Source: Sphaerolaimus hirsutus (Eukaryota; Nematoda; Chromadorea; Monhysterida; Sphaerolaimidae). Taken from it: a stretch of DNA of 64,000 bases. The stretch is from positions 1,302,001-1,366,000 of the forward strand of contig OZ038452.1 in NCBI GenBank assembly GCA_964036195.1. Reading direction: 5' to 3'. The notes beneath the pieces were generated by a model. The model had not been told where the DNA came from. It did no database searches and was given only the letters and a program-made list of their open reading frames with translations. The position numbers were made by a program, and so were the translations under genes. Positions 9,086-64,000 of this stretch are shown piece by piece (the stretch's first letter is position 1; each line of letters starts with the position of its first letter).

Positions 9086-9257
9086 GGGGCAGTCCCAAGC
9101 CCTGTAAAGTGTAAAGTCAAATGCAAAGTAAAGTGTCAGCAAAACAAAAAAGAAAAGGTTTCATTACTGAACTTTGCATGACAATTGACACTTTACTTTG
9201 CATTTGACTTAACATTTGACACTTTACTTTACACTTTACAGGGCTTGGGATTGCCAC
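9086..9257 (-). mobile_element. stand-alone introner-type MITE
   Basis: Read on the minus strand it begins GTGGCAATCCCAAGCCCTG and ends cagggcttgggactgcccc, flanked on both sides by CAG. This is the end structure of the elements forming ALDH3 intron 5 and ADPGK introns 6 and 8. It lies just downstream of the ALDH3 stop and is about 172 bp long. The interior is a hairpin of aaagtgtcatgcaaa-like motifs. Confidence 0.75.
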
Positions 9258-9364: not shown

Positions 9365-15516
<6,152 letters not shown>

Positions 15517-16883: not shown

Positions 16884-17261
16884 CAGGGCCGTATCCAGGG
16901 GGGGGGGGGCTGCAGCCCCCCCCCCTTCCCGGGGCGAGACCAGAATATGACCGAAAAATGCGACTTTTTCACCGTCAGCGTAAACATTTTTGCGCGCTAG
17001 CGCGCATTCTTCACCGGACATAAGGTATTATCATCAGATCTGCTCCATGTGGCCGCAAATCGTTATAAATACACTCAATGTTGTACTTTTTGCTGTTGTG
17101 TATGTATATTTACATACATATACAGTGTTCCATGGCGCTGGCGCCAACGCCAATGGCGCCATTATGTAGCAAAAATTTTAGGGGGGGGGGGCTGAGCCCC
17201 CCCCTCGCCGGCCTCCGTAAACAAGCAGCCCCCCCGCTCAAAAATCCTGGATACGTCCCAG
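16884..17261. mobile_element. hAT MITE, CAGGGCCGTATCCAGG family
   Basis: Ends CAGGGCCGTATCCAGG and CCTGGATACGTCCCAG, with a perfect 8-bp duplication CTTACGAG on both sides. Inside are long G/C runs, a tatgtatatttacatacata palindrome and a ggcgctggcgccaacgcc hairpin. The CAGGG end and 8-bp duplication are diagnostic of hAT. Other copies lie at 25127, 30827, 54912 and about 60783. Confidence 0.85.
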
Positions 17262-22203: not shown

Positions 22204-22327
22204 TTATAAATAAATATGCAACACAACGAAAGGAATAAAAAACAGTTCTAAAACGTTTCAACGCCTTTTAAAAATTTCCTATGGGTTGGAAATATACATA
22301 AATTTGCCTAATAACCGAATACCATAT

Positions 22328-22735
22328 TACCTCGAAGATACCATATTACCTAATATTACCCCTTGAATTAACCCCCCCTCGAATAACCCCCCCTCAAAAT
22401 GGGCTGGGGAAATAATAAACCCCCCTCGGAATGATGTACGTCATGTACAAAATAAATCCGTCATGTATGCAATGTACATGACGTATATTACTGTTAATTT
22501 GCATTGCAACTTCACATAGACTAGTTTGTGTAGCTATCAACGTTTTATTGTACATATGTCTCCTGTTTGGACACATTTATTACCTGTTTTGGGTATGCAA
22601 ATGGTATTTACTACGAAACTTACGAAAATTTCTGGCGAAAAAATTAAACCGCCCCCCCCCTCGAATTAACCCCCCCTCAAATTTTGCTGGCGAAAAAATA
22701 AACCCCCATGGGGGTATTTCAAGGTAACACGGCAT
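22328..22735. repeat. accatattacctcgaa / G-run element
   Basis: Runs of C (aaccccccctcgaataacc) and inverted cctcgaagataccat / ggtatttcaaggta ends define it. It matches 51079-51485 in the second block and, in inverse form, 28410-28850. Confidence 0.6.
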
Positions 22736-22771
22736 ACACTTTTTCAAAAATCTGATATCCAGGTGTGACAG

Positions 22772-22941
22772 GAGCAGTCCCGCACACCGTCAAGTGTCAT
22801 GTAGAGTGTCAAATTTCGCCATAGAAATAGAAATTTGTCAAATGTCATGAAAAAGTCAAAGGTTCAGTTATAAATGTTTTACACTCTGTACGACCCTTGA
22901 TACCCGATACCCGACACACTTTACAGGGTGCCGGACTGCAC
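22772..22941 (-). mobile_element. introner-type MITE downstream of ADPGK copy 1
   Basis: Minus-strand start GTGCAGTCCGGCACCCTG, end cggtgtgcgggactgctc, flanked by CTG on both sides. The duplicate is at about 51522-51691. It lies beyond the ADPGK stop codon, so it is not an intron border here. Confidence 0.6.
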
Positions 22942-23230
22942 CAGGTGATGATACGTAACGGTGCAAATTGCCATTTAGCGTCTAGTCCCAGTGCAGTAAT
23001 ATACATATAATTACATCAACGGCTAATTTTACATCCTAATCGCGTTTCAGGTTTCATCCTAACCGTAAAATGAGCAGGTTTCATCATTGATATTCGACAT
23101 GACGAAAATGTCAGCGAAAATTACACGTCAAACGACGAAATGTAAACGAAAATATACACCTTCAAGCTCACTCACCCTCAAAAAAAGCCACAAACTCTAA
23201 CCAATCAAAAAAGACTCAAGCTCCGCCCAC

Positions 23231-26200
23231 TCAGGTGGGGGGCACCTCGGGCGTGCGCCTTGCGCCCTGCACCCTATAAAACTGTGAGTAAACCAGCCCG
23301 ACCGAGCTGATGGCGTCGCCGATGCCCACCGTCTTGCTGGGGTGCTTGCAGACGAGCGCCGGCGTGAATACGAACACAACGTCGTTGCGCATCCACGAGG
23401 TGAGGGGGCTGAACGGGGGGGGGGGTGTTCAATTTGGGGTTCAAACGATACCGTGGTCAAGCTTTCGATAAGTTGATATTTTAAGGGCCGGTCTCGAAAA
23501 AAGGCGTGCCTCCAAAAGTGCCAGTCGACATTTTTGCAAAAAAAATTGTTTAACACATACTTAATTTTCCGGCAATGCTACTTGTAATAAAGAAAATCGA
23601 ACACCTAACGGGCAGGACATACACCGATAAGCAAAAAGAACACTAAAACATTCTCCAAAAAATTAGCAATTGTTTTACCGATATCTCAATGCATTTATAA
23701 CTAGTTTCATCAAAACCTCCCATCAACCTCGCACACGCACCAACCTATGCGGGTTGAACCTATACACCCTGCCGATCTCCTTGTCGAGCACGAACGTGTA
23801 GCCGATGCGGATGTCGACCATGTCGGACTCGATGCGCGCCGCGTTGCCGCACGCCTGCCGCGCCGCCACTCGCGCGCCCGCCGCCAGCGACGCCGCCAGG
23901 TTCGACCAGTCGGCGCCTCTCACTGCCTGGGGGGGGGGGGGGTACCGTACCGTAATGGATGGATCCGAGAATTTGGGAATTTATCCTACCGTAGCGGGGA
24001 TTGGAATTTACCGTACTGTAACGTTTACCGAACTTTTCAGAATTAAAGTACCGTAACGTACCGTACCGTTTTCCTTAAAAATTGAAGGTTTACCGTACCA
24101 TACCGCTTATAGAGGTGTACCGGTTGCCACTATAGGAGGGCGCTATTTGAGTATACTTGGTAAGGCGGTGTAAACGTGAATAATGCGGTCACACCTGAAT
24201 ACCATCCAAAGTGACACGTTTCAGGCAACATTTTGAATGCTCTGTGAAGAAATCACGTGAAAATTCAGAATCCCCAACAAAACGGTTCGCTGTTCGAAAT
24301 CGTAGCCATACGCTACGAATAGCAAAAACCAGCAAAATACAAAAAACGAGTCACGCACCAAAAGATGATAAGTGAGACAATGAAAATGAATCCTCTGCAG
24401 TCGATTTCCGCTCTTCACTGGATCATCCCTATCATAGCCATAATTACTCAGGAGCCAATACAAAATCTCCACAGCCTTGTGCACATGAATGGTGCCAGCG
24501 GTGACAGGGAACAATTTCTCGGCTGATAAAGCGCCGCCGACTTGCGCTAGGAAGGCGAGCTCCTGTTCGTTTAGACCGAGCGAGTCCACGTAGGGCAGAA
24601 TCTGAGTAGGGGTAGGGCGAAATGTTCATGGCGGGGTAGGGATCGTCGGCGTTTTAAACCGTATTTTTGAACGCAGTTTAAAAGGACGGAGCCAAAAAAG
24701 GTATGCAATCAAATATTTGGCCAAAAATACCTGAAAAATAGGCAGATTAACTTTAAAAAATCAACAGGAAAAAAATTATCAATCAAAAATACAACAGGAA
24801 AAATCAAGTACGTTGCCAAATGTACCCGTAACTCAAACACACCCTACTCATGAGATTCCTAGCGTACAAATGGTCCGAAATGGAAGCCATCTCCAAATGC
24901 ATGGGTATATGCGAACTCAGCTGGCCAATATACCGCCTCAGCTGTCTCAATTTCTCCTCCCACAATTCTCGCGGTTGGTTGTCCAATAAGTGCAGTCCGG
25001 ACAAAATGACCAAATCTGAGGCCATTCCCGCACCCGGTAAAATTTCTATTTGAGAGTAAAATTTCATGTGAAATGTCATGCTAAATGTTAAATTCCCAGT
25101 AAAATGGAATACAGTATCACTGGGCACAGGGCCGTATCCAGGGGGGGGCGGGGGGGGCTGCAGCCCCCCCCCCTCCCGGGGTGAGACCAGAAAGTGGCCA
25201 GAAAATGGCACTTTTCCAACATCAGCGCGCATTTTTCGCCAGACATAATGTATTATCGGCAGATTTGCTCCCTGTGACCGAAATCATTATAAATATACTC
25301 AATTATGTGCTGTTTGCAGTATTTGTATGTATATTTACATACATATACAGCGTTCCATGGCGCTGGCGCCAACGCCAATGGCGCCATGGCGTTGCGCCTA
25401 CTAGTGGCGCCAGCGCCATGGCGCTATTCCGCCACTCTGGGTACGTAAAATTTTAGGGGGGGGGGCTGAGCCCCCCCCCCCCGCTCGCCGGCCTCCGTCA
25501 ACAAGCAGCCCCCCCCCCCGCTCAAAAATCCTGGATACGTCCCTGACTGGGCAGTTAACATTTTGCATGGCATTTAACATGATGCTTTATGTTCCGCGTG
25601 ACATTATCCAAGGTGCGGGACTGACACCTGGCTTCTGCGTGGTGATTGTGTTGAACAACATGTCGATCACCATTGAACTGCCGCTGAAGTGGGGGAGGGG
25701 GGCAAATAATTTGGTAGGCCTAGTTTTAGAGGAATAGCATGAACACATATATTTTTAATTTTTGTCGTTGAAATATTCGAAATATTTTTCAAATTCATGT
25801 TGAGATTGAGTTGTGCAGGTTATTCCCACTTTCATTAGAAAACTTTGTCCTTGTAGAAAAACCGTGTGAACGGAGTCAAGTAATGTTTTTTCTGGCAGAC
25901 ACCTAATATTTCCAGACAATATCCCCTGTCCCAACGCACCTGAACATATCATGACTGGTAATAAATCTAGACGATGTGGGCGCCACATAATCGCCCCAAA
26001 TTTCGCCCTGCCGATACTCCATGATGACGTGAAGTTCGTCCTTGCCAATGCGAGTAGAATTTTGCGTCACAATTCTGGGGCCAGATTCAATTTGAACGTT
26101 AGGCGCCCGACAGGCGAGCAAGAAATTATGTGCGTTGTGTGGGGAAAATGGCCCAACCCACATAGGGTTCAAACGGGATTGACTTTTCGGGATCGGGATA

Positions 26201-29200
26201 GGGATTGGTTTTTTGAAATTTCGGGATCGGGATAGGGATTGGCCGGGATTGGGGTCACGGGATCGGGATCGGGATTGGCATTTTTTCGGGATCGGGATTG
26301 GGGTCCTGGGATAGAGATTTTGGCCAATGTTTTGGCATCCACAGTTGTTCATAAAGGTCTAAAAACACTGTTGGATGCCAGAAACGTGGCATAAAATGAA
26401 CGCGGGGGGTTTGCGTTCACATTTTTGCATGCAAAAACGTCGTTTTTACACTTTTGATAATTTCCAGTAATTTTTCCGGGATTGGGATCCCGGACTTTGG
26501 AGTTTCTCGGGATCGGGATCGGGATTTGAAAAGTTTCGGGATCGGGATCGGGACTGCTAAATCCCGGAATTTCACGGGATCCGGGATCGGGATCCCGTTT
26601 GAAACCTAAAAACACACTAGTTTACCACAGGTTTGGAGAACTCATTTTTCAGCTTCGAACACAATGGTTTTTCCAGAATGAGTCATTTTTATCAAATACT
26701 TCGCTGAAAAGTCGCTGAACAAGTTTATAAACACCAGTAAACTCAAATCTGAGTACTCATAAATCAGCTTTGAACCTATTTGGGTTTAATTTTCAAATTG
26801 CCTTTTAGTTGACGTAGATTAAAAAGCAAATTCAAAATAAAACTCGAATATGTTCAAAACCGATTGATGAGCATCCAATCTTTAATTTACTGGTGTTTGT
26901 AAATTATGGCGCGTCGCGCCATTCCAGCAAACTTTAAATGATTTCACGAATTTTTGAAATGTCATTAGCAAGCTACTGTATGGAATATGGACACAATTTG
27001 ACGCGCGAGCGCCTGACACTCAAATTGGATCTGACACCTGGGGTGGAGCAGCGCTTTGGAACGGGGCCCGATCGGCCCCACCAGAACCACGTTGTAATTG
27101 GGATACGTCGCAGCGATTTTAGTCGCCATTAGCGCCGCGTTGCCGCCGATTGCCAGCTGCCAAATTGGGGGTATATTTGCATTTTTACAAGATAATAATA
27201 ATAATAAGCGTTGTCACGTGAACGGGGGCACCGCTAACAACTATTTTATATACGACATCGATTGTCGAGTATTGCTCACGTCACATTTTTTCAAAAATCA
27301 CATCTTTTTTTTTGTAAAAAGATTTTTTGGATATCGGACACATTTTTATTGAGCAAAAATGAGGTATTTCATTAAGCATTTTCATCTATAGGACAGCAAA
27401 AATATCGAATATCGACATCGAAAACGATATCGTAATAAATACTGTACGACATATTGAACCGCAGTTTGGGGTTAGTAATACACTTGAAAAAAAACAATTT
27501 GCAGCTTTCCGGATATTCGTTGCCATTCGTCACTTGATTCTCATTTCGCATCATGACTAGGGTTGGCCGATGTTTTTTTAACGTATTTTATTTAAAATCT
27601 TGACGTCTGAAATGTTTTTTTTTTTAAAACATCGACCGAAATTTTTAGTACTAAGCACTAGGTATTTTGCAAAATTTTTGCGCGCAAGCGTTTATTTAAA
27701 AATACGTTTTTTATTTAAAAAAAAACGTTTTTTTTTAAATATCGAGTTTAAAAAAACGTTTTTTTTTCAACCCTAATCATGACTGCTCTTTTAAAGAACG
27801 CAAACGAATGAAGGCGTGAAATATGGCTCAAACAAGACCTTCAGGGTAAGCAATTTCACAAATACAGATAAGAGTGAGATTCTATAAACACTAGTTGACG
27901 GTCGATCAGGGGTCAACTGAAAACACTCATTCACTCAAAAGCGGGTAAACAGTTTCAGAAAACGTTCAAAACCGCAAAAAAAAACTGGACATATTTGAGC
28001 CATTGAATGGAAAGCACAGGGAGAAATGAACCCAGTGGAACAGAAATTATATAAAAAACAAAAGGCATGCTTGTCCTAAATAAATAAAAACACGATGCAA
28101 ATGTTCATACCCTCCATGGCTGAGTAGAATGGCAATGGGGGCGTGATTTTCGGAAAATAAGAAGAAAAAAATAATAAAAAAATCGAACAATATAAATAAT
28201 AAGTATTCAAAATGCAATGTGATATTTATACTCACTTCACGCTGCAGCATATCTTCCGCTACTTTGAGCGCCACATCAAATGAAGATTTGTCAGAGTAGT
28301 ATCTAAAATAAAATTGAGTATCCAATCCAGTTTAACATACCTATATAAATATCCATAAATAGAAAATACTTGAAAAAATCCATTGAAATTATTTCTCATG
28401 GGTGAAATACCATATTACCTCGAAATACCCCCATGGGGGTTTATTATTTCGCCAGCAAAATTTGAGGGGGGGTTAATTCGAGGGGGGGGTTTATTCGAGG
28501 GGGGGTTTATTATTTCGTCAGAAATTTTCGTAAAAATTGTAGTAAATAGTGGGCATTTGCATACCCAAAACTGGTAATAAATGTGTCCAAACACATATAT
28601 TTGGACATAAACACGTAGATAGCTACACAAACTACTCTATGTGTAGCTGCAATGCAAATTAACAGTAATATACATCATGTACATTGCATTCATGATGTAT
28701 TTATTATGTACATGACGTACATCATTCCGAATGGGGGGGGTATTTCGAGGGGGGGGGGGTTTATTATTTCCCCAGCCCATTTTGAGGGGGGTTTAATTCG
28801 AGGGGGGGTCAATTCAAGGGGGGGGGGGGATAATTCGAGGTAATACGGTAATCTGGTTTGCCGATTTTGGATATCATAAACTATTTAATGCTTATGGTCC
28901 AACATTCAGTCGTTACGTCGTTCACTTCGAAAATTCATGTCACTGGAAAAAAGTATCGTCAACTAGTTGTCGGGGATCAAAAATGCTACATTCCGGCAAC
29001 TCAGATGCGTGGAAATGGATGTACGACTATTCCCATGAGGATTTCGGTGGGAAACTAATAGTGAGGAAACTTGAGAAGCGACAAGTTTCAGTCTCGATTC
29101 TCGAAGCAAACACTTCACACAAATTGGAAACTTTCCATAAAATCCGTCACTTTAAACAGACCGCCCCTCCACACGCAACATCCCCCCCAAACCACAAGCC

Positions 29201-32200
29201 CAAAACCATTCACAAACCTTTCCGCCGGTGCGCCGGAGCCAAAAAAGTGCGCAAAAGTCTCCTGCAACTGCTGGAAATCGTCGACTTGCTTGTGGTCCTG
29301 CACGGTGCCGGTCGGGGTGATGTTCAGCCGCGACAAAAAGGCGGTGCCTGGCACGATAACGTCCACGTTGCAGTTGATGCTGTTATATTGGGGGGGGTTT
29401 GGGGGAGGATTTTTTTTGGGTGGAGTCGAGTGAGCCGTTTTTTGTTGGATATCTATCTACGAGTTATACTGTGTGCAAATGGCGCTCCACACGCTGGAAA
29501 CGCTGGAATGTCAACTGGTTTGGAGTCAACTCATTTTAGCTGAAGTTAGGTAGCAGGATTATTTTCAAGTGGATATGTGGCAATGTCGAAAAGGAATCAA
29601 TATTGCCATGTGCATTTGAACAAGGTTTCGCGACCCATAAACTTAAATCTTGATGAAAACCATTCGACCAGTTGACATTGGGATGTCAACTGATGTCAAC
29701 TGCACCAACCGGTTTTCATCAAGATTTCAGTTTATGGGTTGCGAAACCAAGTTCAAATGCGCATGGCAAATTGATTCCGTTTCGACATTGCCGCATGTGC
29801 ACTTGAAATTGTCATGCAACCAAAATTGAGCTAAAATCGAGTTGACACTGAAACCAGTTGACATTCCAGCGTGTGGAGCGCCAATAAATATAACTGTGTG
29901 CAAAGGATATATGCCAGTGATGTTTATTTTTATGTATACTGAGAAGAATATAACAGTCCACTCAGCCACTGACCGAACTTTTCTATGAATTCAATTTACC
30001 AAACTCTTCATGTTGTTGTCATGGCTAGGGTTGGAAAAAAAACGTTTTTTTTTAACTCGATGTTTTTTAAAAAAAAAAACGTTTTTTTTAAAAGCTCCCA
30101 GATATGACCTAGTGTCAACATATATAGGTATATCAGACACTGGCAATACTATGTGATGTTAAATATGACCATATAATGGCTGTGGAGCCATGGGATAGCA
30201 TTATAAGTGGTGATTTGTGTCAAAAATATCCATTTTTCATCAACATGTCGTTCATATATCGCCTTATAGTCGAATGTTCGTGACTTCAGGTAAAGTTTGG
30301 CACGGAATGGTGATCAAACAAGGTTATAAAAGGAGGTTGTTACTTTGGGAGTGAAGTTACACACTGTGGAGGTACATGGAAGCACATTACCTCAATATTA
30401 TATATTACAGCAACATATGTCGGCTTATTCACCCATGGTAGCACATAGAAATGGATGTTTTGATACTAAAAATGCAACAAAACCAATGAAAACAACCACC
30501 AATGTCAATTTGTGTGTGAAATTGCGCGCTTGCGCGCAAAAATTTTGCAAAATACCTAGTGCTTAGTACTAAAAATTTTGGCCGATGTTTTTTAAAAAAA
30601 AAAACATTTCGGACGTCATGTTTTTTTAAAAAAACGTTTTTTTTTAAAAACGTTTAAAAAAAACATCGGCCAACCCTAGTCATGGCATTACATTTTTCTC
30701 AGTATCTGTCAATTCAAGCCCCCCCCCCCCTGAGCGAGACACAAAAGATACCAGGAAAGGCGCGCATTTGCCGCGCAATATTTATAAACATAATTCACAT
30801 TTATGAATCAAAACAACAAAGACCACCAAGGACGTATCCAGGGGGGGGGGCGGGGCTGCAGCCCCCCCCCTCCCGGGGTGAGACCTAAAAAGTCCCGGAA
30901 AATGCAACTTCCTATATATTTTTTGATGTGTTCGCGCAATTTCTTCCCCATCCTTGGAAATGAACACATTTTTGCGAATTTCGCTATATATGTATGCATT
31001 TTTACATACATACATATGGATCGGTTCCTGGCGCCAACGCCAATAGCGCCATGGCGTGGCGCCTTTGTATGGCGCTAGCGCCAAAACGCATTCCCGCCCC
31101 TATATAGAGAAAAACTTTAGGGGGGTCTGAGCAAGCAGCCCCCGGTCAAAAACCCTGGATACGTCCCTGAACACCGCTATGAATGTAAATACTCGTCACA
31201 ACAGTTCACCCAGTTTGCAGTAAAAATCGCACCGACCCGACAACAATCTTTTTGAACTGCATCGGCGGCAGTTCTATGATGCGGCTCCACGCTTCCACCA
31301 CTGCCATTTCATCGGTGAACGATTGACTTTTGCGCGACCGCATGTACCTGCGATTGGGGTGCGCTAAAGGCCTTACACATACTGGGTGTCCGACCCTTCC
31401 CGGGTCGGACAAGAAAATATACCCGAAATGGTGCTCACGTAAAGCGATTTTGTCACCAGTCCGGAAAAATTTTGCGCGCAAGCGCGCATTTCGGCACCGC
31501 ACAGTATATTTTAGTTATACCTGTGGTTTATGACCAAAAAAGCACTGAAAATTCGCCCCCGTCGCTGTATATGTATGTAAAATACATACAGGGGTGGGCA
31601 TCTTCAGTTACCGCTGGAAAAACGCGATAGCTTGAGCTACAGTTGAGCTATCACAATGAAATTTTAACACAATAGAGTAGACTCCATAGGACACCTATGC
31701 TAAAGTTTGCAACCCAAACGGCCACAGTTTGGAGGAGTTGTGGAACACACAGTTTTTAGTGTAATTTTGTGACTTCACCCCCCTTATCTCGGGACTGGGG
31801 GACTATTCGAGTAAAAAAAGAATTTGGTAGTAGGCGCGACCACAACATACTCAAAGGGCATCAAAATCGGCCGATGTACGACAGAATGGGACGACACCAA
31901 CGACCGATGACCCCCCCCCCCTCAAATGCCACCCTCGATTTATCCTATGGGTGACGCCAAGTCACAAAATTACACTAAAAACCGTGTGTTCCACAACTCA
32001 CCCAAAATGTGGCCGTTTGGGTTGCAAACTTCAGAATAGGTGTCCTATGGAGTCTACTCCATTGTGTTAAAATTTCATTCTGATAGCTCAACCGTAGCTC
32101 AATCTATCGCATTTTCCCAGCGGTAACTGAAGATGCCCACCCCTGTACAAGTACAGCACTATTTGGCGCCAATGCCAACGCCAATGGCGCCATGGCGTCG

Positions 32201-35081
32201 CGCCTACGAATGGCGCTGGCGCCAAGGCGCCATTCCTTTACCACAGGGGTCAAATTTAGGGGGGGGGGGGGGCGCCGCCCCCCCCGTTCGCCGAGCTCCG
32301 TATACAATCCGCCCCCCCCCCGCTCAAAAAGCCTGGCTACGTCTAGGGTTCAAACGATATGACTTTTCGATATCGATATTCGATATTCGATATTTTTTCA
32401 AAATTTTCGATATCGATATTCGATATTCGATATTTTTTTCTGAAACTCGATATTCGATATCGATACGATATGGAACCTCGATATCGATATTCGATATTGA
32501 AAAATGGTCGATATTCGATATTCGATATTTCGATATTTTCGATATTCAATATTGTGATATGCTTTTGGTATAGCAAGGCATATTTCAAGTGGCATATTGT
32601 ATTTTCATGTGGTTGCACACATGTTTAATCATCATCATGACTCATGTAGCCACCCGTGGTATCGTTGTTGAAATGAAATGAAATGAAAAATGAAATCTCT
32701 TTACTGAAATTTGAATGGTACAAGTGACTTTAACAAGCTTTACATCACTCAATGGTAGAAAATAGAAGAAAAACATGATGAATCAAAGTGTATCAGACAA
32801 ATAACCATTGGTAGATATTACAGTTCATCCTTATAACCTAATTGCTTAAGGGCATGTTGCAAAAAAAGTATATCAGCGTTTTCTGGCTTCAAATTTAGCA
32901 CTCCAAAAAAATGACATTATAAATACTGTACTTTTACTCATCAAATACAATACTATAAGCACATCAGATCTCAGACTATAAACATCTCAAAATGAAAATG
33001 AAAAGTACATTTGGGGACATAAGTCAGGTTTGATATATCGAAAAAATGGTTGATATTCGATATCGATATTCGATATTTTTTCAAAATTTTCGATATCGAT
33101 ATTCGATATTCGATATTTTTTCAAAATTTTCGATATCGATATTCGATATTCGATATTAAAAAATGGTCGATATCCGATATTCGATACGATATATCGTTTG
33201 AACCCTAGCTACGTCCCTGTGATAAGTCAACATAAAACGGATATTTTTGACAGAAATCACTACTTATAATGATATCCCATGGCTCCACAGCCATTCTATG
33301 GCTATATATAACATCTCAAAGTACTGTCACCTGTCTGATTTACCTGTATATGTTGACTCATGACCATATCTGGGAGCTTTTGAAGAAAAAAAACGGTTTT
33401 ATTTTAAAATAAAACCCTTTTTTTAGAAACGGTTGTTGTTTTTTTAAAAACCTTGACGTTGAAAAAAACATTTTTCGACCATCCCTACATTTGACATTTT
33501 ACAGGGTCTGTGATTGGCACCTGGTTGCCATGCAGGGGGTTATAGATTTGAACAATAGCGGGGGTTCATATAAGTGTTCAAAACGGGTCAGACAACGGTC
33601 CCAGTATCTTCTTTGGAAAATTTCCGGGATGGAAGTCGGTCCCGATGCCTCAGTTGGTATCCATAAAAAACTCCGGTCTCGGCCCAGATCGACCAGTTTC
33701 GGAATTCTTCAGTGGTCCGGGGGGCAGTCCCAGACCCTGTAAAGTGTAAAATGTCATGCAAAGTGTCAAAAGTCATGGAAAATGCTCTGCAAAATGGCTA
33801 CTGGTTGCCATTTTGCAGGGCTTTTCCCATGACTTTAGACACTTTGCATTAGGGTTGGGAATTTCAAAATTTTCGGTTCCGGTTCTCGGTTCCAAAAGAT
33901 TTCGGTTCGGGTATCGGTTCTCGGTTTCTGAAAATTTTCGGTTCCGGTTCTCGGTTCGGTTCTCAAACTCGGTTCCGTTCTTTCGGTTCTAAAATGATCA
34001 AAATTTCGGTTCCGGGTAATGAAATAACCGGGTATCGGGTAATAATCGGCTAAACAACAGAAAAACAATATACCCAAGTTTACATGTGTAAGTATTTACA
34101 TTGGTTGGATATTTCATACTACAGGAGCATATCACAGCTTATTATTTCATGGTAGAATGCAGAAATCAGAGTTGTTATAATAATACTGGTATTTAAAAAA
34201 AGTGTAAAAGCAAACATATACGTTTTCTGTACTCGCGTACTTTCAAAAAGTACACAAGTAAATGAGTACTGGTATTTTTTTCTGGAGGAAACATAAATGT
34301 ATTTATGTAGTACGCAAGTGAGTACGCGTATTATTTTGAGTACAAACATAAATAACTTTTGCCAACTACAGTTAAAACTACCAGTGATAATGTGTATACT
34401 GCAGCGACATTACGCCTTACAATGAAATCTACCATATCCCATCTGAATAAATGAACATACATAAAAAATTTCATCATATTTATCAAAGCAATTTGATAAA
34501 TATGATGAAAATTTTTTATGTTTGTTCTTTTATTCAGGTGGGATATGGTAGATTTCATTGTAAGGTGTAATGTCGCTGGAGTATATGTGAAATTACACGC
34601 TCTCGCGCAATCATTTTGCAAACAGATGAATTTTGCAATTCTGAACACGCACCAAGATGTTCAGCTGCTGTTTAAAGGCTTAGATGTAGGTGTTGAAAAA
34701 ACGCGTTTTAAAAACTTTAAGATTCCTAGAAAATTTCGGTTCTTTCGGGTATTTACTTCGGTTCCGGGTATAAGTGCCGGTTCTCGGTTCCGGTTCGGTT
34801 CTCAAGCTCTGTTCCGGTTCTCGGTTCTCGGTTCCAAAATAGTGCTCGGTTCTCGGTTCGGTTCGGGTCGGTTCGGTTCCCCAACCCTACTTTGCATGAC
34901 ATTTTACACTTTACGGGGCGTTTTACAGGGTCTGGGACTGGCACCTGATGAGACAACAATACGGTCTCATTCCAACCCATCGGGCTAGTTAAATTGCGAA
35001 CCTGGAGTACAGATAAGCGGCGCTTCCAATAAGTATGGCCAGATGCAGCCATGCGTGTTTAGACCACGAAAATAGGAACAT
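23231..35081 (-). CDS. ADPGK: ADP-dependent glucokinase, copy 1
   Basis: Phosphorylates glucose using ADP, giving glucose 6-phosphate and AMP; animal forms are ER-associated. Exons (minus order): 35002-35081, 33521-33706, 31237-31347, 29218-29379, 28236-28302, 27038-27156, 25940-26074, 25628-25683, 24843-25015, 24359-24601, 23745-23926, 23231-23408. All are GT-AG, phases agree throughout, 563 residues. Seen: N-terminal MFLFSWSKHA then hydrophobic WLHLAILIGSAAYLY (signal or anchor), LAIGGNAALMATK, VVLVGPIGP, EYRQGEIWGDYVAP, SSRFITSHD, PDLVILSGLH, LEMAS, DSLGLNEQEL, RIHFHCLTYHLL, LAAGARVAARQAC, FTPALVCKHPSKTVGIGDAIS (the GXGD catalytic motif). The gene is longer than the roughly 500 residues usual in vertebrates, mainly because of exon 2. 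Exon 2 (33521-33706) is chosen from phase, splice sites and an open frame but has no clear homology. A likely 5'-UTR acceptor lies at 35169. Confidence 0.95.
25016..25627 (-). mobile_element. introner forming ADPGK intron 8 (copy 1)
   Basis: The exon ends AAGCCAG; the intron starts GTGTCAGTCCCGCACC and ends GGTGCGGGAATGGCCTCAG. The two ends are inverted repeats (GTCCCGCACC / GGTGCGGGAATGG) and CAG lies at both borders. Joining the exons gives QKP-DLVILSG, as expected for ADPGK. A hAT MITE (25127-25545) is inserted inside. The same intron in copy 2 is 54801-55941. Confidence 0.88.
25127..25545. mobile_element. hAT MITE nested inside the intron-8 introner
   Basis: CAGGGCCGTATCCAGG ... CCTGGATACGTCCCTG with perfect 8-bp duplication ACTGGGCA. 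Contains a GC-run hairpin and the ggcgctggcgccaacgcc palindrome. Present at the same site in copy 2, so it predates the duplication or allelic split. Confidence 0.9.
26075..27037 (-). mobile_element. introner-like ADPGK intron 6 (copy 1), hAT inside
   Basis: The exon ends CACCCCAG; the intron starts GTGTCAGATCCAATTTGAGTG-type sequence and ends TTCAAATTGAATCTGGCCCCAG-type sequence. The ends are inverted (CAGATCCAATTTGA / TCAAATTGAATCTG) with CAG at both borders. Splicing joins LLHP to RIVTQNS in phase. The internal family differs from the intron-8 element, so a second introner family is likely. A TAGGGTTC-type hAT-like element is nested at 26163-26608. Confidence 0.75.
26163..26608. mobile_element. 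hAT-like TAGGGTTC element, cgggatc-array core
   Basis: Ends TAGGGTTCAAACGGGAT and ATCCCGTTTGAAACCTA, core of reiterated cgggatcgggatt. The copy-2 counterpart (56481-56890) keeps a perfect 8-bp duplication AACCCACA; here the right flank has two mismatches. Confidence 0.85.
27558..27775. mobile_element. deleted hAT-like TAGGGTTGG element
   Basis: Perfect 8-bp duplication ATCATGAC. Same terminal aaaacgtttt tracts as the 17710 family but with most of the centre missing. Lies in ADPGK intron 5; counterpart at about 57921-58140. Confidence 0.85.
28410..28850. repeat. G-run element in ADPGK intron 4
   Basis: Ends accatattacctcgaaatac and ggataattcgaggtaatacg flank many G runs. In copy 2 the site (58696-58900) carries a different, shorter accgtatttactcgaataat element, so this position has turned over since the copies split. 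Confidence 0.6.
29481..29882. mobile_element. foldback MITE ggcgctccacacgctgg
   Basis: Ends ggcgctccacacgctgg and ccagcgtgtggagcgcc, inner inverted arms of catttgaac / gttcaaatg and tgatgaaaacc / ggttttcatca. Related sequence (ctgtgtgcaaa) flanks both sides. In ADPGK intron 3; counterpart 59435-59836. Confidence 0.75.
30026..30678. mobile_element. hAT-like TAGGGTTGG element in ADPGK intron 3
   Basis: Perfect 8-bp duplication GTCATGGC on both sides; aaaacgtttt-tract ends. Counterpart 59980-60633 at the same site in copy 2. Confidence 0.88.
30827..31169. mobile_element. hAT MITE, CAAGGACGTATCCAGG variant
   Basis: Ends CAAGGACGTATCCAGG and CCCTGGATACGTCCCTG, core with ggcgccaacgccaatagc palindrome. 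Flanks AAGACCAC / AACACCGC agree at six of eight positions. In ADPGK intron 3; counterpart about 60774-61129. Confidence 0.75.
31589..32146. mobile_element. hAT-like foldback CAGGGGTGGGCATC
   Basis: About 210-bp inverted arms from caggggtgggcatcttcag to ctgaagatgcccacccctg, with inner arms gtcacaaaattacactaaaa. The loop has a C run. The CAGGGGTGGGCA end is typical of hAT elements; a target duplication is not clear. Confidence 0.75.
32344..33207. mobile_element. hAT-like TAGGGTTC element, cgatatt-array core
   Basis: Ends TAGGGTTCAAACGATATG and ATCGTTTGAACCCTA, perfect 8-bp duplication GCTACGTC. The core near both ends is reiterated cgatatcgatattcgatatt; the centre (32570-33030) is unique and non-coding. 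Open frames rich in Ile-Glu-Tyr are translations of the repeat. Confidence 0.88.
33850..34889. mobile_element. hAT-like TAGGGTTGG element, cggttct-array core
   Basis: Ends TAGGGTTGGGAATTTC and GGTTCCCCAACCCTA, perfect 8-bp duplication CTTTGCAT. The terminal arrays are cggttctcggttccggttc. A 180-bp hairpin (34402-34578, arms tctaccatatccca) is nested inside. The whole element sits in the introner-type element of ADPGK intron 1 and is absent from copy 2. Confidence 0.88.
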
Positions 35082-35168
35082 TTTCGTGGATCCTATGTTG
35101 TCGGCAGATGAGATTTTTGACCGTTTTTCTTTTTTGATTTATCACTGTGATTTCCTGAGGAACGTCCA

Positions 35169-35520
35169 CTGTAAAACAGTGAGAATTACAAAAATTGTTT
35201 AGATTAAGGCGGAGCCGAATAAAAATAGGCCAAACTGATAAGCTGGCAAGAAGCCAATCACATTTGTGCGATGTAACTCCACGATATAAACCTTGCCAAT
35301 CAGGAAAAAACACGTAAAATGAGAAAGTAAAAGCATCCACGAACTTCCACCACGAAAACTTGAAAAGAATGGAAATCTACCAAAATCCCACAAAGAGGTA
35401 AAATTCTAAAAAAAATTCGAATGGACCGGCCAGAATGGCCAGTGGAATCATTAAAGTGAGCCCCATCTCAATTTTTTTGCGACAACAACCGTCACACTTA
35501 AATAATACCCCCCCTCATAT
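35169..35520 (-). promoter_or_regulatory. region between ADPGK exon 1 and a divergent ORF
   Basis: Upstream of the ADPGK exon-1 acceptor (tttacag|TGGACG), conserved between copies with few changes. It may hold a 5' non-coding exon and a shared promoter. No TATA box or initiator is convincing. Confidence 0.3.
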
Positions 35521-35524
35521 GTAG

Positions 35525-35954
35525 ATGGCTGTTAATTACGCTGGTAATTATAACGGTTTTGGTCCAGATGTACTGCATTTACCTGGGCGTTATGCAAATG
35601 TATCATACGCACCAACGTCAACAACAGAGAAAAATAGCACACAAGGTTGTAATTGTTGTTGTATTTTAATTGAAAATGTTTTAAATTTCTGTAAAGCAAA
35701 TTAAAAATTGTTTTTAGCGTTCGAGTGGCTTTTAATGCAAACTTTGATATGCGAAAACGACACATTTGCAAAATTGAAAATGTTTGACCCTAGAAATTGC
35801 CTTGAATTTTTTCAGCGTTTACAAAACTGTTGAAATGCTCACAAGCGTTGGTGATTTGCGACGTTTAAATTTGGAAACTACAAAATCCTATGTATTTTTG
35901 GAAAGTCCAAGTTTTGAAATCGCAGTGAAGGCAAAACAAAAAAATATCAGTTAA
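35525..35954 (+). pseudogene. small unassigned plus-strand ORF, broken in copy 1
   Basis: Starts MAVNYAGNYNGFGPDVLH and corresponds to 63365-63785. In this copy a 2-nt difference (gaaaatg instead of gaatg) and a stop in the second segment break the frame that is open in the other copy. I do not recognise the protein. It may be a young gene, a remnant, or chance. Confidence 0.3.
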
Positions 35955-36027
35955 ACCAGAGGCCAATACCTCAAACGGACAAGTAACAAAAAAACTGTTT
36001 AGTTAGCAATAAGTTTACATATAAGTG

Positions 36028-36998
36028 GCAGATACCATATTTCTTCTAATAGAAGAGCGCCGTTCTATTTTTTCGTCAACTTTTTTACCTGCCATCCTAT
36101 TGGAGGCTGCCGTTCTATCTTTTCACCAATTTTTCAGATTTCTCATTTGAGCACTGTTTTATTTTGAATGGAACTTGAGCAGCATTTTAATATCTGAGCA
36201 TCTATTTGAGGCCTCTACTTCTAAAAGTCGACAAGTCCACAAAATGTTATTTTGAGTAAATCGCATTTTAAGCTTCCGATCCAATTCCAAACCCATGGTG
36301 CATGTCTAATTTGGCTCTCTCATGCTTTCCATTAAGTTCCATATGTTGACAATAAAGTGTCACATTTTCAGCCCCTGCTCTCAACCTATATGTGAAAAAT
36401 GGGCTGTCCATAAATTTCCATTCGGTCAGAGCAAAACTGTTTTTGGGAGGGAAATGGACTTGTCGACTTCTTGCACTCGCGAACATTTTTGTTCCCGCCC
36501 AGGTTGCGCCTGCCTTATGGGCAACTTATGGACTTGTCAACTTTTAGAAGTAGCTGTCCATGACGAACTTATCACATTTCTTGCTTTTTTTACGATAAAA
36601 AATGAAGGCGAAGGGTGGACTTGTCGACTTCTTGCCCGAAATTTTTGCATTTTTCCCAAAAAATGTCAAATTTGGCACTGCCATATGGGCATGTGAATGT
36701 GAGGTCAAAAAATTTATGGAAAATGATTTAAAAAATGTGCGGAAGTATCGCCAGATGACGTTTCCGGGTTTCCTAACTCGAAATTTTCATATTTTGGACT
36801 TGTCGAGTTTAAGAAGTAGACGCCTCATTAGTAGTTTAATGTCAAAATTTGAATGCCATCCAACGTAATGTTTTCCTGCCGTTCTTTTGGAGGCTGCCGT
36901 TCTATTGTTTTCGTGAGTGCAAAACGTGCCAAAACCTGCCGTTCTATTGGAGGTGCCGTTCTATTGGAAGTATGCCGTTCTATTAGAAGAAATACGGT
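36028..36998. mobile_element. element with accatatttcttctaatagaa ends
   Basis: Inverted ends atttcttctaatagaa and ttctattagaagaaat bound about 970 bp containing gccgttctattggaggc units at each end and acttgtcgacttctt repeats in the middle. Shorter relatives lie at 650-1050 and 7915-8335, and another starts at 63870. Confidence 0.7.
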
Positions 36999-46552: not shown

Positions 46553-46752
46553 NNNNNNNNNNNNNNNNNNNNNNNNNNNNNNNNNNNNNNNNNNNNNNNN
46601 NNNNNNNNNNNNNNNNNNNNNNNNNNNNNNNNNNNNNNNNNNNNNNNNNNNNNNNNNNNNNNNNNNNNNNNNNNNNNNNNNNNNNNNNNNNNNNNNNNNN
46701 NNNNNNNNNNNNNNNNNNNNNNNNNNNNNNNNNNNNNNNNNNNNNNNNNNNN
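46553..46752. other. assembly gap (200 N)
   Basis: A block of exactly 200 N is usually a placeholder, so the true distance and content here are unknown. It lies at the edge of the satellite array. Confidence 0.98.
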
Positions 46753-49700
46753 CTCACATGCAATACAATCAACCCTTGATTGGGGCGCATTCCACGTTTT
46801 CAAATCTAATGTATAAAATCGTGACGGCGAACCTTCTGGAGAGTGGCAGTATCTGAAAGAGAATTGTCTAAGCTTTCCAATGGTATAGACCACAGCATTT
46901 AGTTTTCCTGGTTCCGGCCCCACATGCGATACAATCAACCCTAGATTAGGGCGCACATCACGTTTTGAAATCTTAGGTATAAAAATGCTAACGCGAGCCT
47001 CTGGGGAGGCTGTGGATTCTGAAAGAGGAGGTTCTCAGCTTCACAACGGTATCAAATATAGCCGTTACGTCTCCTTAGTTCCAGCCTCACATGTGATACA
47101 ATCGACCCTTGATTTCTGCACAAAGCATGTTTTGAAATCTTAGGTATAAAAATGCTAACGCGAGCCTCTGGGGAGGCTGTGGATTCTGAAAGAGGATGTT
47201 CTCAGCTTCGCAACGGTATCAAATATAGCCGTTACGTCTCCTTAGTTCCGGCCTCACATGCAATACGATCGACCCTGGATTTCTGCAAACCGCATGTTTT
47301 GAAATCTTAGGTATAAAATCGTGACGGTGAACCTTCTGGAGAGTGGTACTATCTGAAAGAGAATTATCTCAGTTTTTCAATGGTATGAATCACAGCATTT
47401 AGTTTTTCCTGGTTCCGGCCTCACATGCAATACAATCAACCCTTGATTGGGGCGCATTCCACGTTTTCAAATCTTATGTATAAAATCGTTACGGTGAACC
47501 TTCTGGAGTGGCAGTTTCGGAAAGAGAATTGTCTAAGCTTTCCAATGGTATAGACCACAGCATTTAGTTTTTTTTTGGTTCCGGCCCCACATGCAATACA
47601 ATCAACCCTAGATTATGGCGCACATCACGTTTTGAAATCTTAGGTATAAAAATGCTAACGCGAGCCTCTGGGGAGGCTGTGGATTCTGAAAGAGGAGGTT
47701 CTCAGCTTCACAACAGTATCAAATATAGCTGTTACGTCTCCTTAGTTTTGGCCTCACATGTGATACAATCGACCCTCGATTTCTGCACAAAGCATGTTTT
47801 GAAATCTTAGGTATAAAAATGCTAACGCGAGCCTCTGAGGAGGCTGTGGATTCTGAAAGAGGATGTTCTCAGCTTCGCAACGGTATAAAATATAGCTGTT
47901 ACGTCTCCTTAGTTCCGGCCTCACATGCGATACGATCGACCCTGGATTTCTGCAAACCGCATGTTTTGAAATCTTAGGTATAAAATCGTGACGGTGAACC
48001 TTCTGGAGAGTGGTACTATCTGAAAGCTAATTATCTCAGCTTTCCAATGGTATGAATCACAGCATTTAGTTTTTCCTGGTTCCGGCCTCACATGCAATAC
48101 AATCAACCCTTGATTGGGGCACATTCCACGTTTTCAAATCTTATGTATAAAATCGTGACGGTGAACCTTCTGGAGAGTGGCAGTATCTGAAAGAGAATTG
48201 TCTAAGCTTTCCAATGGTATAGACCACAGCATTTAGTTTTTCCTGGTTCCGGCCCCACATGCGATACAATCAACCCTAGATTAGGGTGCACATCACGTTT
48301 TGAAATCTTAGGTATAAAAATGCTAACGCGAGCCTCTGGGGAGGCTGTGGATTCTGAAAGAGGAGGTTCTCAGCTTCACAACGGTATCAAATATAGCCGT
48401 TACGTCTCCTTAGTTTTGGCCTCACATGTGATACAATCAACCCTCAATTTCTGCACAAAGCATGTTTTGAAATCTTAGGTATAAAAATGCTAACGCGAGC
48501 CTCTGGGGAGGCTGTGGATTCTGAAAGAGGATGTTCTCAGCTTCGCAACGGTATCAAATATAGCCGTTACGTCTCCTTAGTTCCGGCCTCACATGCGATA
48601 CGCTCGACCCTGGATTTCTGCAAACCGCATGTTTTGAAATCTTAGGTATAAAAATGCTAACGCGAGCCTCTGAGGAGGCTGTGGATTCTGAAAGAGGAGG
48701 TTCTCAGATTCGCAACGGTATCAAATATAGCCGTTACGTCTCCTTAGTTCCGGCCTCACATGCGATACGATCGACCCTGGATTTCTGCAAACCGCATGTT
48801 TTGAAATCTTAGGTATAAAATCGTGACGGTGAAACTTCTGGAGAGTGGTACTATCTGAAAGAGAATTATCTCAGCTTTCCAATGGTATGAATCACAGCAT
48901 TTAGTTTTTCCTGGTTCCGGCCTCACATGCAATACAATCAACCCTTGATTGGGGCGCATTCCACGTTTTCAAATCTTATGTATAAAATCGTGACGGTGAA
49001 CCTTCTGGAGAGTGGCAGTTTCTGAAAGAGAATTGTCTAAGCTTTCCAATGGTATAGACCACAGCATTTAGTTTTTCCTGGTTCCGGCCCCACATGCGAT
49101 ACAATCAACCCTAGATTAGGGCGCACATCACGTTTTGAAATCTTAGGTATAAAAAAGCTAACGCGAGCCTCTGGGGAGGCTGTGGATTCTGAAAGAGGAG
49201 GTTCTCAGCTTCACAACGGTATCAAATATAGCCGTTACGTCTCCTTAGTTTTGGCCTCACATGTGATACAATCGACCCTCAATTTCTGCACAAAGCATGT
49301 TTTGAAATCTTAGGTATAAAAATGCTAACGCGAGCCTCTGGGGAGGCTGTGGATTCTGAAAGAGGATGTTCTCAGCTTCGCAACGGTATCAAATATAGCC
49401 GTTACGTCTCCTTAGTTTTGGCCTCACATGTGATACAATCGACCCTTGATTTCTGCACAAAGCATGTTTTGAAATCTTAGGTATAAAAATGCTAACGCGA
49501 GCCTCTGGGGAGGCTGTGGATTCTGAAAGAGGATGTTCTCAGCTTCGCAACGGTATCAAATATAGCTGTTACGTCTCCTTAGTTCCGGCCTCACATGCGA
49601 TACGATCGACCCTGGATTTCTGCAAACCGCATGTTTTGAAATCTTAGGTATAAAATCGTGACGGTGAACCTTCTGGAGAGTGGTACTATCTGAGAGAGAA

Positions 49701-50650
49701 TTATCTCAGCTTTCCAATGGTATGAATCACAGCATTTAGTTTTTCCTTGTTCCAGCCTCACATGCAATACAATCAACCCTTGATTGGGGCTCATTCCACG
49801 TTGTCAAATCTTATGTATAAAATCGTGATGGTGAACCTTCTGGAGAGTGGCAGTTTCTCAAAGAGAATTTTCTAAGCTTTCCAATGGTATAGACCACAGC
49901 ATTTAGTTTTTGCTGGTTCCGGCCCCACATGCGATATAATCAACCCTAGATTAGGGCGCACATCACGTTTTGAAATCTTAGGTATAAAAATGCTAACGCG
50001 AGCCTCTGGGGAGGCTGTGGATTCTGAAAGAGGAGGTTCTCAGCTTCACAACGGTATCAAATATAGCCGTTACGTCTCCTTAGTTCCGGCCTCACATGCG
50101 ATGCGATCACCCAAGAGTAGTGTGCACAGCACGTTTTGAAATCTTAGGTATAAAAAAGCTAACGCGAGCCTCTGGGGAGGCTGTGGATTCTGAAAGAGGA
50201 AGTTCTCAGCTTCGCAACGGTATCAAATATAGCCGTTACGTCTCCTTAGTTCCGGCCTCACATGCAATGCGATCACCCAAGAGTAGTGTGCGCAGCACGT
50301 TTTGAAATCTTAGGTATAAAAAAGCTAACGCGAGCCTCTGGGGAGGCTGTGGATTCTGAAAGAGGAGGTTCTCAGCTTCGCAACGGTATCAATTATAGCC
50401 GTTACGTCTCCTTAGTTCCGGCCTCACATGCGATGCGATCACCCAAGAGTACTGTGCGCAGCACGTTTTGAAATCTTAGGTATAGAAAAGCTAACGCGAG
50501 CCTCTTGGGAGGCTGTGGATTCTGAAAGAGGAGGTTCTCAGCTTCGCAACGGTATTAAATATAGCCGTTACGTCCCCTTAGTTTTGGCCTCACAGGCGAT
50601 TTGATTGACCCAGATTAGTTCATGCAGTACATTTTGAAACCTTATGTATA
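46753..50650. repeat. about 167-bp satellite with 4-mer/5-mer higher-order units
   Basis: About 23 head-to-tail monomers, landmarked by cacatg every 166-168 bp. Four subtypes (P: ccccacatgcgatac; T: cacatgtgatacaatc; C: atacgatcgaccctgg; B: acaatcaacccttgattggg) run as P-T-C-B, P-T-C-B, P-T-C-C-B, P-T-T-C-B. A run of X-type monomers (gatgcgatcacccaagag) and a diverged final unit follow. Homologous B units are 667 bp (4-mer) or 835 bp (5-mer) apart. Most monomers carry a short dyad agcctc-loop-gaggct. Open frames here are artefacts of repetition. The array abuts the N gap and may be truncated or collapsed. Confidence 0.95.
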
Positions 50651-51994
50651 AACTTATGACATTGAACCTACTGGTCAGCAGTGGATAATGAAAGTTCACA
50701 ATTTCAGCTTTCCAATGGTATAAAATATAGCTATTATGTATTGATAGTTGGGCACCAAATAGCAAATTATGTCAGAAATGCCCAATTTTGGAAATATTCA
50801 CTTTCAAGTATATGCGATATATACGAATGAAAATTTTACATGTATTGCATAACTTACTGGACCCATTGGAGTACCTTAGGACCATTTTCACAATTTTCAT
50901 TTTTTTTTCGGTGTCCAGCTTTTGTTCCTGGAGTGGCTATTGACTCGTAGACTGACTCTTATAAATAAATATGCAACACAACGAAAGGAATAAAAAACAG
51001 TTCTAAAACGTTTCAACGCCTTTTAAAAATTTCCTATGGGTTGGAAATATACATACATTTGCCTAATAACCGAATACCATATAACCTCGAAGATACCATA
51101 TTACCTAATATTACCCCTTGAATTAACCCCCCCTCGAATAACCCCCCCTCAAAATGGGCTGGGGAAATAATAAACCCCCCTCGGAATGATGTACGTCATG
51201 TACAAAATAAATCCGTCATGTATGCAATGTACATGACGTATATTACTGTTAATTTGCATTGCAACTTCACATAGACTAGTTTGTGTAGCTATCAACGTTT
51301 TATTGTACATATGTCTCCTGTTTGGACACATTTATTACCTGTTTTGGGTATGCAAATGGTATTTACTACGAAACTTACGAAAATTTCTGGCGAAAAAATT
51401 AAACCGCCCCCCCCCCGAATTAACCCCCCCTCAAATTTTGCTGGCGAAAAAATAAACCCCCATGGGGGTATTTCAAGGTAACACGGCATACACTTTTTCA
51501 AAAATCTGATATCCAGGTGTGACAGGAGCAGTCCCGCACACCGTCAAGTGTCATGTAGAGTGTCAAATTTCGCAATAGAAATAGAAAGTTGTCAAATGTC
51601 CTGAAAAAGTCAAAGGTTCAGTTATAAATGTTTTACACTCTGTATGACCCTTGATACCCGATACCCGACACACTTTATAGGGTGCCGGACTGCACCAGGT
51701 GATGATACGTAACGGTGCAAATTGCCATTTAGCGTCTAGTGTCAGTGTAGTAATATACATATAATTACATCAACGGCTAATTTTACATCCTAATCGCGTT
51801 TCAGGTTTCATCCTAACCGAAAAATGAGCAGGTTTCATCATTGATATTCGACATGACGAAAATGTCAGCGAAAATTACACGTCAAACGACGAAATGTAAA
51901 CGAAAATAATCGAAAATATACACTTTCAAGCTCACCCACCCTCGAAAAAAGTCACAAACTCTAACCAATCAAAAAAGACTCAAGCTCCGCCCAC

Positions 51995-62914: not shown

Positions 62915-63364
62915 TTTCGTGGATCCTTTTGTTGTCGGCAGCTGAGATTTTTGACCGTTTTTCTTTTTTGATTTATCACTTTGATTTCCTGAGGAACGTC
63001 CACTGTGAAAAAGTAAGGATTACAAAAATTGTTTAGATTAAGGCGGAGCCGAATGAAAATAGGCCAAACTGATAAGCTGGCAAGAAGCCAATCACATTTG
63101 TGCGATGTAACTCCACGATATAAACCTTGCCAATCAGAAAAAAAACACGTAAAATGAGAAAGTAAAAGTCTCCACGAACTTCCACCACGAAAACTTGAAA
63201 AGAATGGAAAGCTACCAAAATTCCACAAAGAGGTAAAATTATTTTAAAAAAATTCGAATGGACCGGCCAGAATGGCCAGTGGAATCATTAAAGTGAGCCC
63301 CATCTCAATTTTTTTGCGACAACAACCGTCACACTTAAATAATACCCCCCCCCCTCATATGTAG

Positions 63365-63785
63365 ATGGCTGTTAATTACGCTGGTAATTATAACGGTTTT
63401 GGTCCAGATGTACTGCATTTACCTGGGCGTTATGCAAATGTATCATACGCACCAACGTCAACGACAGAGAAAAATAGCACACAAGGTTGTAATTGTTGTT
63501 GTATTTTAATTGAATGTTTTAAATTTCTGTAAAGCAAATTAAAAATTTGTTTCTAGCGTTCGAGTGGCTTTTAATGCAAACTTTGATATGCTAAAACAAC
63601 ACATCTGCAAATGTTTGACCCTAGAAAATGCCTTGAATTTTTTCAGCATTTACAAAACTGTTGAAATGCCCACAAGCGTTGGTGATTTGCGACGTTTAAA
63701 CTTGGAAACTACAAAATCCTATGTATTTTTGGAAAGTCCAAGTTTTGAAATCACAGTGAAGGCAAAACAAAGAATATCAGTTTAA
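63365..63785 (+). CDS. unassigned small plus-strand ORF, divergent from ADPGK
   Basis: A first segment (63365-63528, MAVNYAGNYNGFGPDV..., with a CNCCC cluster) and a second (63557-63785, ending SFEITVKAKQRISV) would join in frame. That requires removing 28 nt that start gtaaag and end ttctag. Such a short intron would be exceptional in an animal, and copy 1 is frameshifted, so real coding status is doubtful. No family recognised. Confidence 0.3.
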
Positions 63786-63865
63786 CCAGAGGCCAATACC
63801 TCAAACGGACAAGTAACAAAAAAACTGTTTAATTAGCAATAAGTTTACATATAAGTGGCAGATAC

Positions 63866-64000
63866 CATATTTCTTCTAATAGAAGAGCGCCGTTCTATTT
63901 GTTCGTCAACTTTTTTACCTGCCATCCGATTGGAGGTGCCGTTCTATTGGAGGCTGCCGTTCTATCTTTTCACCATTTTTTCAGATTTCTCATTTGAGCA
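63866..64000. mobile_element. left part of accatatttcttctaatagaa element (cut by window end)
   Basis: Second-block counterpart of the element at 36028-36998, running off the window. Confidence 0.65.

Follow-up and report, generated by a model that had tools for sequence, protein, structure and literature searches.

An ADPGK gene within a 64,000-nucleotide stretch of genomic DNA, here called the window, contains an intron whose ends resemble those of a transposable element. Introners are a leading candidate source of new introns, few animal cases have been described, and a small transposon which apparently becomes a removable intron on landing in a gene bears on the question of intron origin. 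Is this intron an element that brought along its own donor site and obtained its acceptor from the duplicated target?

Borders of the ADPGK intron

The gene was identified as ADPGK on the minus strand by a Pfam match (PF04587) and by a match to a solved ADP-dependent glucokinase. The terminal part of the upstream exon (positions 25628 to 25679; ...SSMVIDMLFNTITTQKP) has CCAG as its last bases and terminates in CAGAAGCCAG at base 25628. Read on the minus strand from 25627 to 25016, the intron has the sequence GTGTCAGTCCCGCACC...GGTGCGGGAATGGCCTCAG, with GT at the 5' end and AG at the 3' end; sequence and frame place it in phase 1. The following exon (24849 to 25015, 3' limit approximate) opens with ATTTGGTC at 25015 and encodes DLVILSGLHLL. 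Joining the exons across 25628/25015 yields ...TTQKPDLVILSGLHLL and thereby QKPDLVILSG in frame, as had been predicted by an earlier reading of the locus made from the sequence only (the sequence-only reading).

On the minus strand the borders of the element read CAG|GTGTCAGTCCCGCACC ... GGTGCGGGAATGGCCT|CAG. The terminal repeat at the 5' side (25612 to 25627) is the source of the donor GT and has its counterpart at the 3' side at 25019 to 25034. A CAG is present at both borders, as expected of the 3-bp target duplication that had been proposed: the exonic copy is located at 25628 to 25630 and the intronic copy, source of the acceptor AG, at 25016 to 25018. The presumed introner and this 3' copy of the duplication together make up the intron. 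The ends had also been described as inverted repeats, and the arms, analyzed without a MITE nested between them, reached an inverted-repeat score of 41; 1000 dinucleotide shuffles averaged 14.5 and did not exceed 25. Hence, an introner taking its donor GT from a terminal repeat and its acceptor AG from the duplicated CAG, as suggested beforehand, is supported by the sequence, and the same layout recurs throughout the genome.

A large family of related elements

The genome to which the window belongs (348,482,957 bases or 348 Mb, 762 contigs) was searched with the element end, a check which the sequence-only reading had proposed. The 24-nt family terminal inverted repeat (TIR) GTGSCAGTCCCRGACCCTGTAAAA gave 3298 forward and 3211 reverse matches, i.e. 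6,509 with at most one mismatch, and the reversed control gave 0; these matches are ends, and a single element may count twice. Exact matches to CAGGTGGCAGTCCCRGACC (CAG followed by GTGG) were found at 42 places, to CAGGTGCCAGTCCCAGACC (CAG followed by GTGCC) at 850 places, and to CTGGTGCCAGTCCCAGACC (CTG followed by GTGCC) at 722 places, each with a control of 0. The family TIR had no exact match in the collections viral_contigs and genome_contigs. Among the loci examined, the elements have a median length of about 180 bp and mostly measure about 140-250 bp. One end begins with GTG, the other often with GGGG and sometimes with GTG.

A search with the whole ADPGK intron was swamped by the nested MITE, and the left outer part was then searched alone. 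This left half matched just 8 places genome-wide, two of them the window's own; therefore, the TIR, the target site duplication (TSD) and the palindromic layout are what link the intron to the family.

Target duplications were counted at 50 loci chosen regardless of TSD, with the ends paired without using it; after removal of seven unpaired loci and two duplicates, 41 elements remained. The flanking triplets were identical in 25 of these, namely CTG in 12, CAG in 11, CAT in one and CGG in one, so that 23 of the 25 identical pairs are CWG duplications. This count was used in place of an earlier one, in which all three bases matched in 64 of 111 pairs (33 CAG, 27 CTG, 2 CGG, 2 ATG) and which was biased by retained duplicate rows, by the use of the TSD in pairing and by some loci chosen for CAG. 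CGG/CGG or CAT/CAT duplications occur at loci L078 and L079 and at L056. Because of these few copies, the CWG target is to be regarded as a strong preference and not as absolute.

Three further family members are located in the window. The elements at 9086 to 9257 and 11518 to 11694 are both flanked by CTG/CTG as read on the plus strand; for the former, no exonic position was seen, and the duplication of the latter was read from its flanks. The third (22772 to 22941) is flanked by CAG/CAG on the plus strand, likewise read from the flanks, and has a duplicate at 51526-51695.

Family members in conserved coding sequence

Empty-site joins were translated, likely-coding peptides were picked by hand, and these were scanned against Pfam. 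With GTG on the 5' side, 11 of 28 peptides had matches that extended over the seam: above-cut-off matches spanning the seam were obtained for six of nine CTG-site peptides and five of nine CAG-site peptides, and the ten further peptides gave none above cut-off. At CTG sites the domains were Oscp1 (L058:1347), E1_dh (L085:1335; 22.4 bits at a cut-off of 22), Xan_ur_permease (L087), 7tm_1 (L039 and L032) and Srx (L083); at CAG sites they were Cation_ATPase_C (L095), E1_dh (L085:2118), Oscp1 (L058:2170, also in L059), LOR (L041) and a C2H2 zinc finger (L011). On the other strand, 11 ORFs (ten of those listed and that of L084) were scanned, and none had a Pfam match spanning the seam. At the 11 seams with spanning matches, as in ADPGK, the family ends coincide with the predicted splice sites, and removal of the element would restore the coding sequence exactly.

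On the other strand, a GDT1 match at L092 lay right of the seam only and below cut-off, and an ORF at L084 appeared coding-like by eye and had no Pfam match; both may possibly be exonic copies in the unfavourable orientation. Some elements of the scanned set carry GTG at both ends. By resemblance, beyond Pfam, the genes presumably include those for a Na/K-ATPase, BCKDHA (L085), SLC23 (L087), a tensin (L043) and a cyclin Y (L086). In three genes, E1_dh (L085), Oscp1 (L058) and the tensin-like one (L043), two family elements lie close to each other. Individual genes may thus have gained several introns from the family.

Orientation bias

Orientation was examined by codon usage, each locus being scored with itself held out. 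The test covered 68 of the 70 elements that have GTG at a single end (two were dropped for short flanks). The flanks scored as coding with GTG on the 5' side in 11 elements, as coding the opposite way in one, and as neither in 56; sorted by 5' triplet, 4 of 18 elements with CTG and 7 of 41 with CAG passed. Two of the 11 cases, L030 and L031, are near-duplicates, and the sole opposite case, L039, was mis-paired, its true ends both being GTG. By this bias of 11:1, selection appears to act on the donor GT, and RNA splicing is thereby indicated. Arm-to-arm identity, tried as a measure of age, was uninformative (means of 0.79 for 10 CAG-coding, 0.83 for 9 CTG-coding and 0.76 for 33 other elements).

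In C. elegans, splicing can proceed in the absence of a 3' AG, and transposons can be removed from mRNA by a hairpin-directed route termed 'SOS splicing'. Rushforth and Anderson are said to have described the removal of Tc1 by splicing in 1996. The inverted-repeat hairpins of the present family might likewise be removed outside the usual splice-site rules. They are indeed very stable, with z-scores of -12.3 for the ADPGK intron (20 shuffles; nested MITE included) and -13.8 for one family copy (200 shuffles), CTG copies are found in exons, and the route proposed for the introners of Amoebophrya provides a precedent (PMC7789003). However, such a route would require neither a 5' GTG nor a 3' AG, and both appear to be favoured; we therefore consider it unlikely, even if it has the best standing among the alternatives to an element spliced as an introner.

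Copies at CTG sites

The layout with CAG at both borders, on which the sequence-only reading was modelled, recurs in the genome; the model did not cover CTG targets in exons, which are equally common among the Pfam cases (six CTG and five CAG copies). On the coding strand of a CTG-site copy, the sole seamless removal is GT...TG, and no GT-AG pair at the element ends would restore the frame. The nearest AG, located in TTTTACAG of the TIR, would leave 19 nt behind and shift the frame.

Among the 41 elements, four had CTG as the 5' copy of the target duplication and CAG as the 3' copy (L071, L086, L093, L094), and none had the reverse arrangement; in seven of the nine pairs mismatched by a single base, the 3' copy was CAG. 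At L086, the only one of the four shown to be exonic, this arrangement results in a canonical GT-AG intron in the cyclin Y-like gene. The ratio of four to zero may reflect selection for an AG at the acceptor and suggests that exonic CTG copies get removed.

Furthermore, a tandem pair of Srx genes carries a CTG element in both copies. The exons are identical in 334 of 339 bases (191/193 and 143/146), and the elements in 156 of 168 aligned bases with 28 gap columns. The five exon differences amount to three changed residues and one silent change. The stretch directly downstream is identical in 242 of 374 positions and the next one in 749 of 777, so the divergence of the flanks is uneven. The pair suggests that exonic CTG copies are removed; in view of the three residue changes, this evidence is moderate.

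Alternatively, exonic copies, chiefly those at CTG sites, could be recent insertions which break the genes and are unspliced, many of them perhaps heterozygous. The lack of a GT-AG pair at the ends that restores the frame, with the AG of TTTTACAG leaving its 19 nt, would fit this explanation. Against it stand the strand bias, the one-sided CTG/CAG pairs, and the Srx genes, which have kept nearly identical exons around an element present in both despite the residue changes; moreover, the old ADPGK copy is present in two paralogues, and the exons flanking it are open in both. Broken genes are thus an improbable explanation, slightly more so than removal of hairpins outside the splice-site rules.

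If exonic CTG copies are removed, the observations are most simply read as the birth of an intron in two steps. An element would insert at CWG irrespective of the base at W. Exonic insertions at CTG would be tolerated through removal by the host at GT...TG, with a 3' splice site other than AG and maybe with the help of the hairpin; the canonical AG would arise afterwards, when the intronic CTG changes from T to A. We put this scheme forward as tentative, being inclined to doubt it rather than to accept it. If true, GT-TG introns would be numerous in the genome, and a visible series would connect newborn with mature introns. Two other routes were set aside. GC-AG splicing of CTG copies, using a donor at offset 2 and the AG of TTTTACAG, would remain in frame and add seven residues; it was dropped, by reasoning only, because several sites lie within GPCR or enzyme domains. 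Precise excision at the DNA level was dropped because excision requires no strand bias.

Proposed origin and relation to known systems

Taken as a whole, the ADPGK intron is very probably best explained as the insertion of a NuwaI-like MITE at a coding CAG, spliced as an introner. A short, non-autonomous, NuwaI-like MITE of the PIF/Harbinger superfamily would have entered a CAG of the ADPGK coding sequence, presumably moved by a NuwaI-type transposase, and its insertion would have duplicated this CAG. The element would supply the donor GT and a pyrimidine-rich 3' end, the duplicated CAG the acceptor. As one family TIR begins with GTG and the other often with GGGG, the typical pre-mRNA would read exon-CAG|GTG...CCCC-CAG|exon. 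The spliceosome would then take out the element together with one CAG and leave the protein unaltered, and an equal process would be at work in other genes.

NuwaI (PHIS, PIF/Harbinger superfamily) is described in PMC4482050 as an animals-only group with a CWG target duplication and a TIR usually starting with GGG, its hosts being 12 bony fish, a beetle, a crustacean, a mollusc and an anthozoan. Compared by TIR and TSD, the present family resembles NuwaI in its mostly CWG duplication and its animal host. One of its ends often begins with GGGG, the other with GTG, and it differs from NuwaI in this GTG, in its length of mostly about 140-250 bp and in its probable nematode host (PMC4482050). Introners derived from TIR elements, with a splice site recruited from the target duplication, are already known (PMC9860276; Gozashti et al. 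2022), and that survey places introners in only two animal groups, copepods among them. With these the present family shares a TIR DNA element and a target duplication, one splice site in the element and the other from the duplication, borders that coincide with splice sites, predicted ones in the present family, and many copies; unlike the introner cases compared here (PMC9860276), it shows CWG duplications and a CTG class. The GA/GG donor introns of the copepod Eurytemora affinis (PMC5714493) likewise represent many recent gains with a non-canonical site, which there is the donor and in the nematode family would be the acceptor (CTG). Introner elements of Amoebophrya also have inverted and direct repeats at the intron borders, hairpins and non-canonical borders, whereas this organism is a protist with highly varied motifs and the nematode family has one type of TIR (PMC7789003).

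The best named matches of the ADPGK protein were nematodes, the top one with 56% identity. In a tree of 41 rows, the ADPGK of the window fell within the nematodes. It did not belong to a group of 25 rhabditid-type rows, but branched closer to that group than Trichinellida do (support 99/90). The placement of the genome among nematodes is provisional, one gene having been used. A search of the literature yielded no report of nematode introners by title, most subscription papers being outside its reach. The Gozashti group reportedly presented a larger survey in 2025. The elements thus appear to constitute a new introner family in a probable nematode genome; introners of this kind are known, and the CTG class is the least expected part. 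A large introner family would thereby be placed in a probable nematode, i.e. in a phylum with model species, and be clearly linked to a transposon group whose choice of CWG targets can supply an acceptor AG. Its CAG and CTG insertions would provide a natural experiment on the strictness of the AG at the 3' splice site and on the improvement of newborn introns by selection.

Composite structure and tandem duplication of the ADPGK gene

The sequence-only reading had regarded the intron as one transposon from splice site to splice site. The outer borders of the element indeed match the splice sites; the 612 bp are, however, not a single element. Nested within the introner is a 419-bp MITE (25127 to 25545), which we take to be hAT-like from the features of its ends and duplication. 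Its ends are CAGGGCCGTATCCAGG (its TIR) and CCTGGATACGTCCCTG, and it is flanked by the 8-bp target duplication ACTGGGCA at 25119 to 25126 and 25546 to 25553. It has many copies across the genome. After subtraction of this MITE and one ACTGGGCA, a near-palindromic element of 185 bp remains. That an old ADPGK intron was filled by transposons later, its splice sites matching the repeat ends by chance, is the least probable explanation of all: a hAT-like MITE did enter the intron, but the outer repeat and the CAG duplication match both splice sites to the base, and the layout is found again in other genes, precisely where the coding sequence joins.

A second, tandem ADPGK copy 30 kb from the first contains the matching intron on the minus strand (54801 to 55941), which begins with GTGGCAGTCCCGCACC, ends with CAG, and includes the nested MITE (54912-55340) and an extra insert of about 0.5 kb. 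Since the second copy shares the intron and the MITE and has a further insert, the probable order of events is introner, MITE, duplication and second insert. According to the reading of the intron as a spliced NuwaI-like MITE, the hAT-like MITE would have inserted into the ADPGK introner, and the gene, intron included, would then have been duplicated in tandem.

Partial relatives of the nested MITE are located in the window at 16884-17259, 30827-31169, 32146-32343 and 60780-61129. The MITE itself contains GGCGCC-rich, partly palindromic simple sequence (25355-25428), which is repeated at other sites of the window. Comparison of the window with itself revealed a segmental tandem duplication (22204-36118 and 50959-63947) which contains the two ADPGK copies, with blocks about 92-98% alike and differing insertions, and a tandem array of units of about 167 bp at 46753-50721, adjoining an assembly gap of 200 N at 46553-46752.
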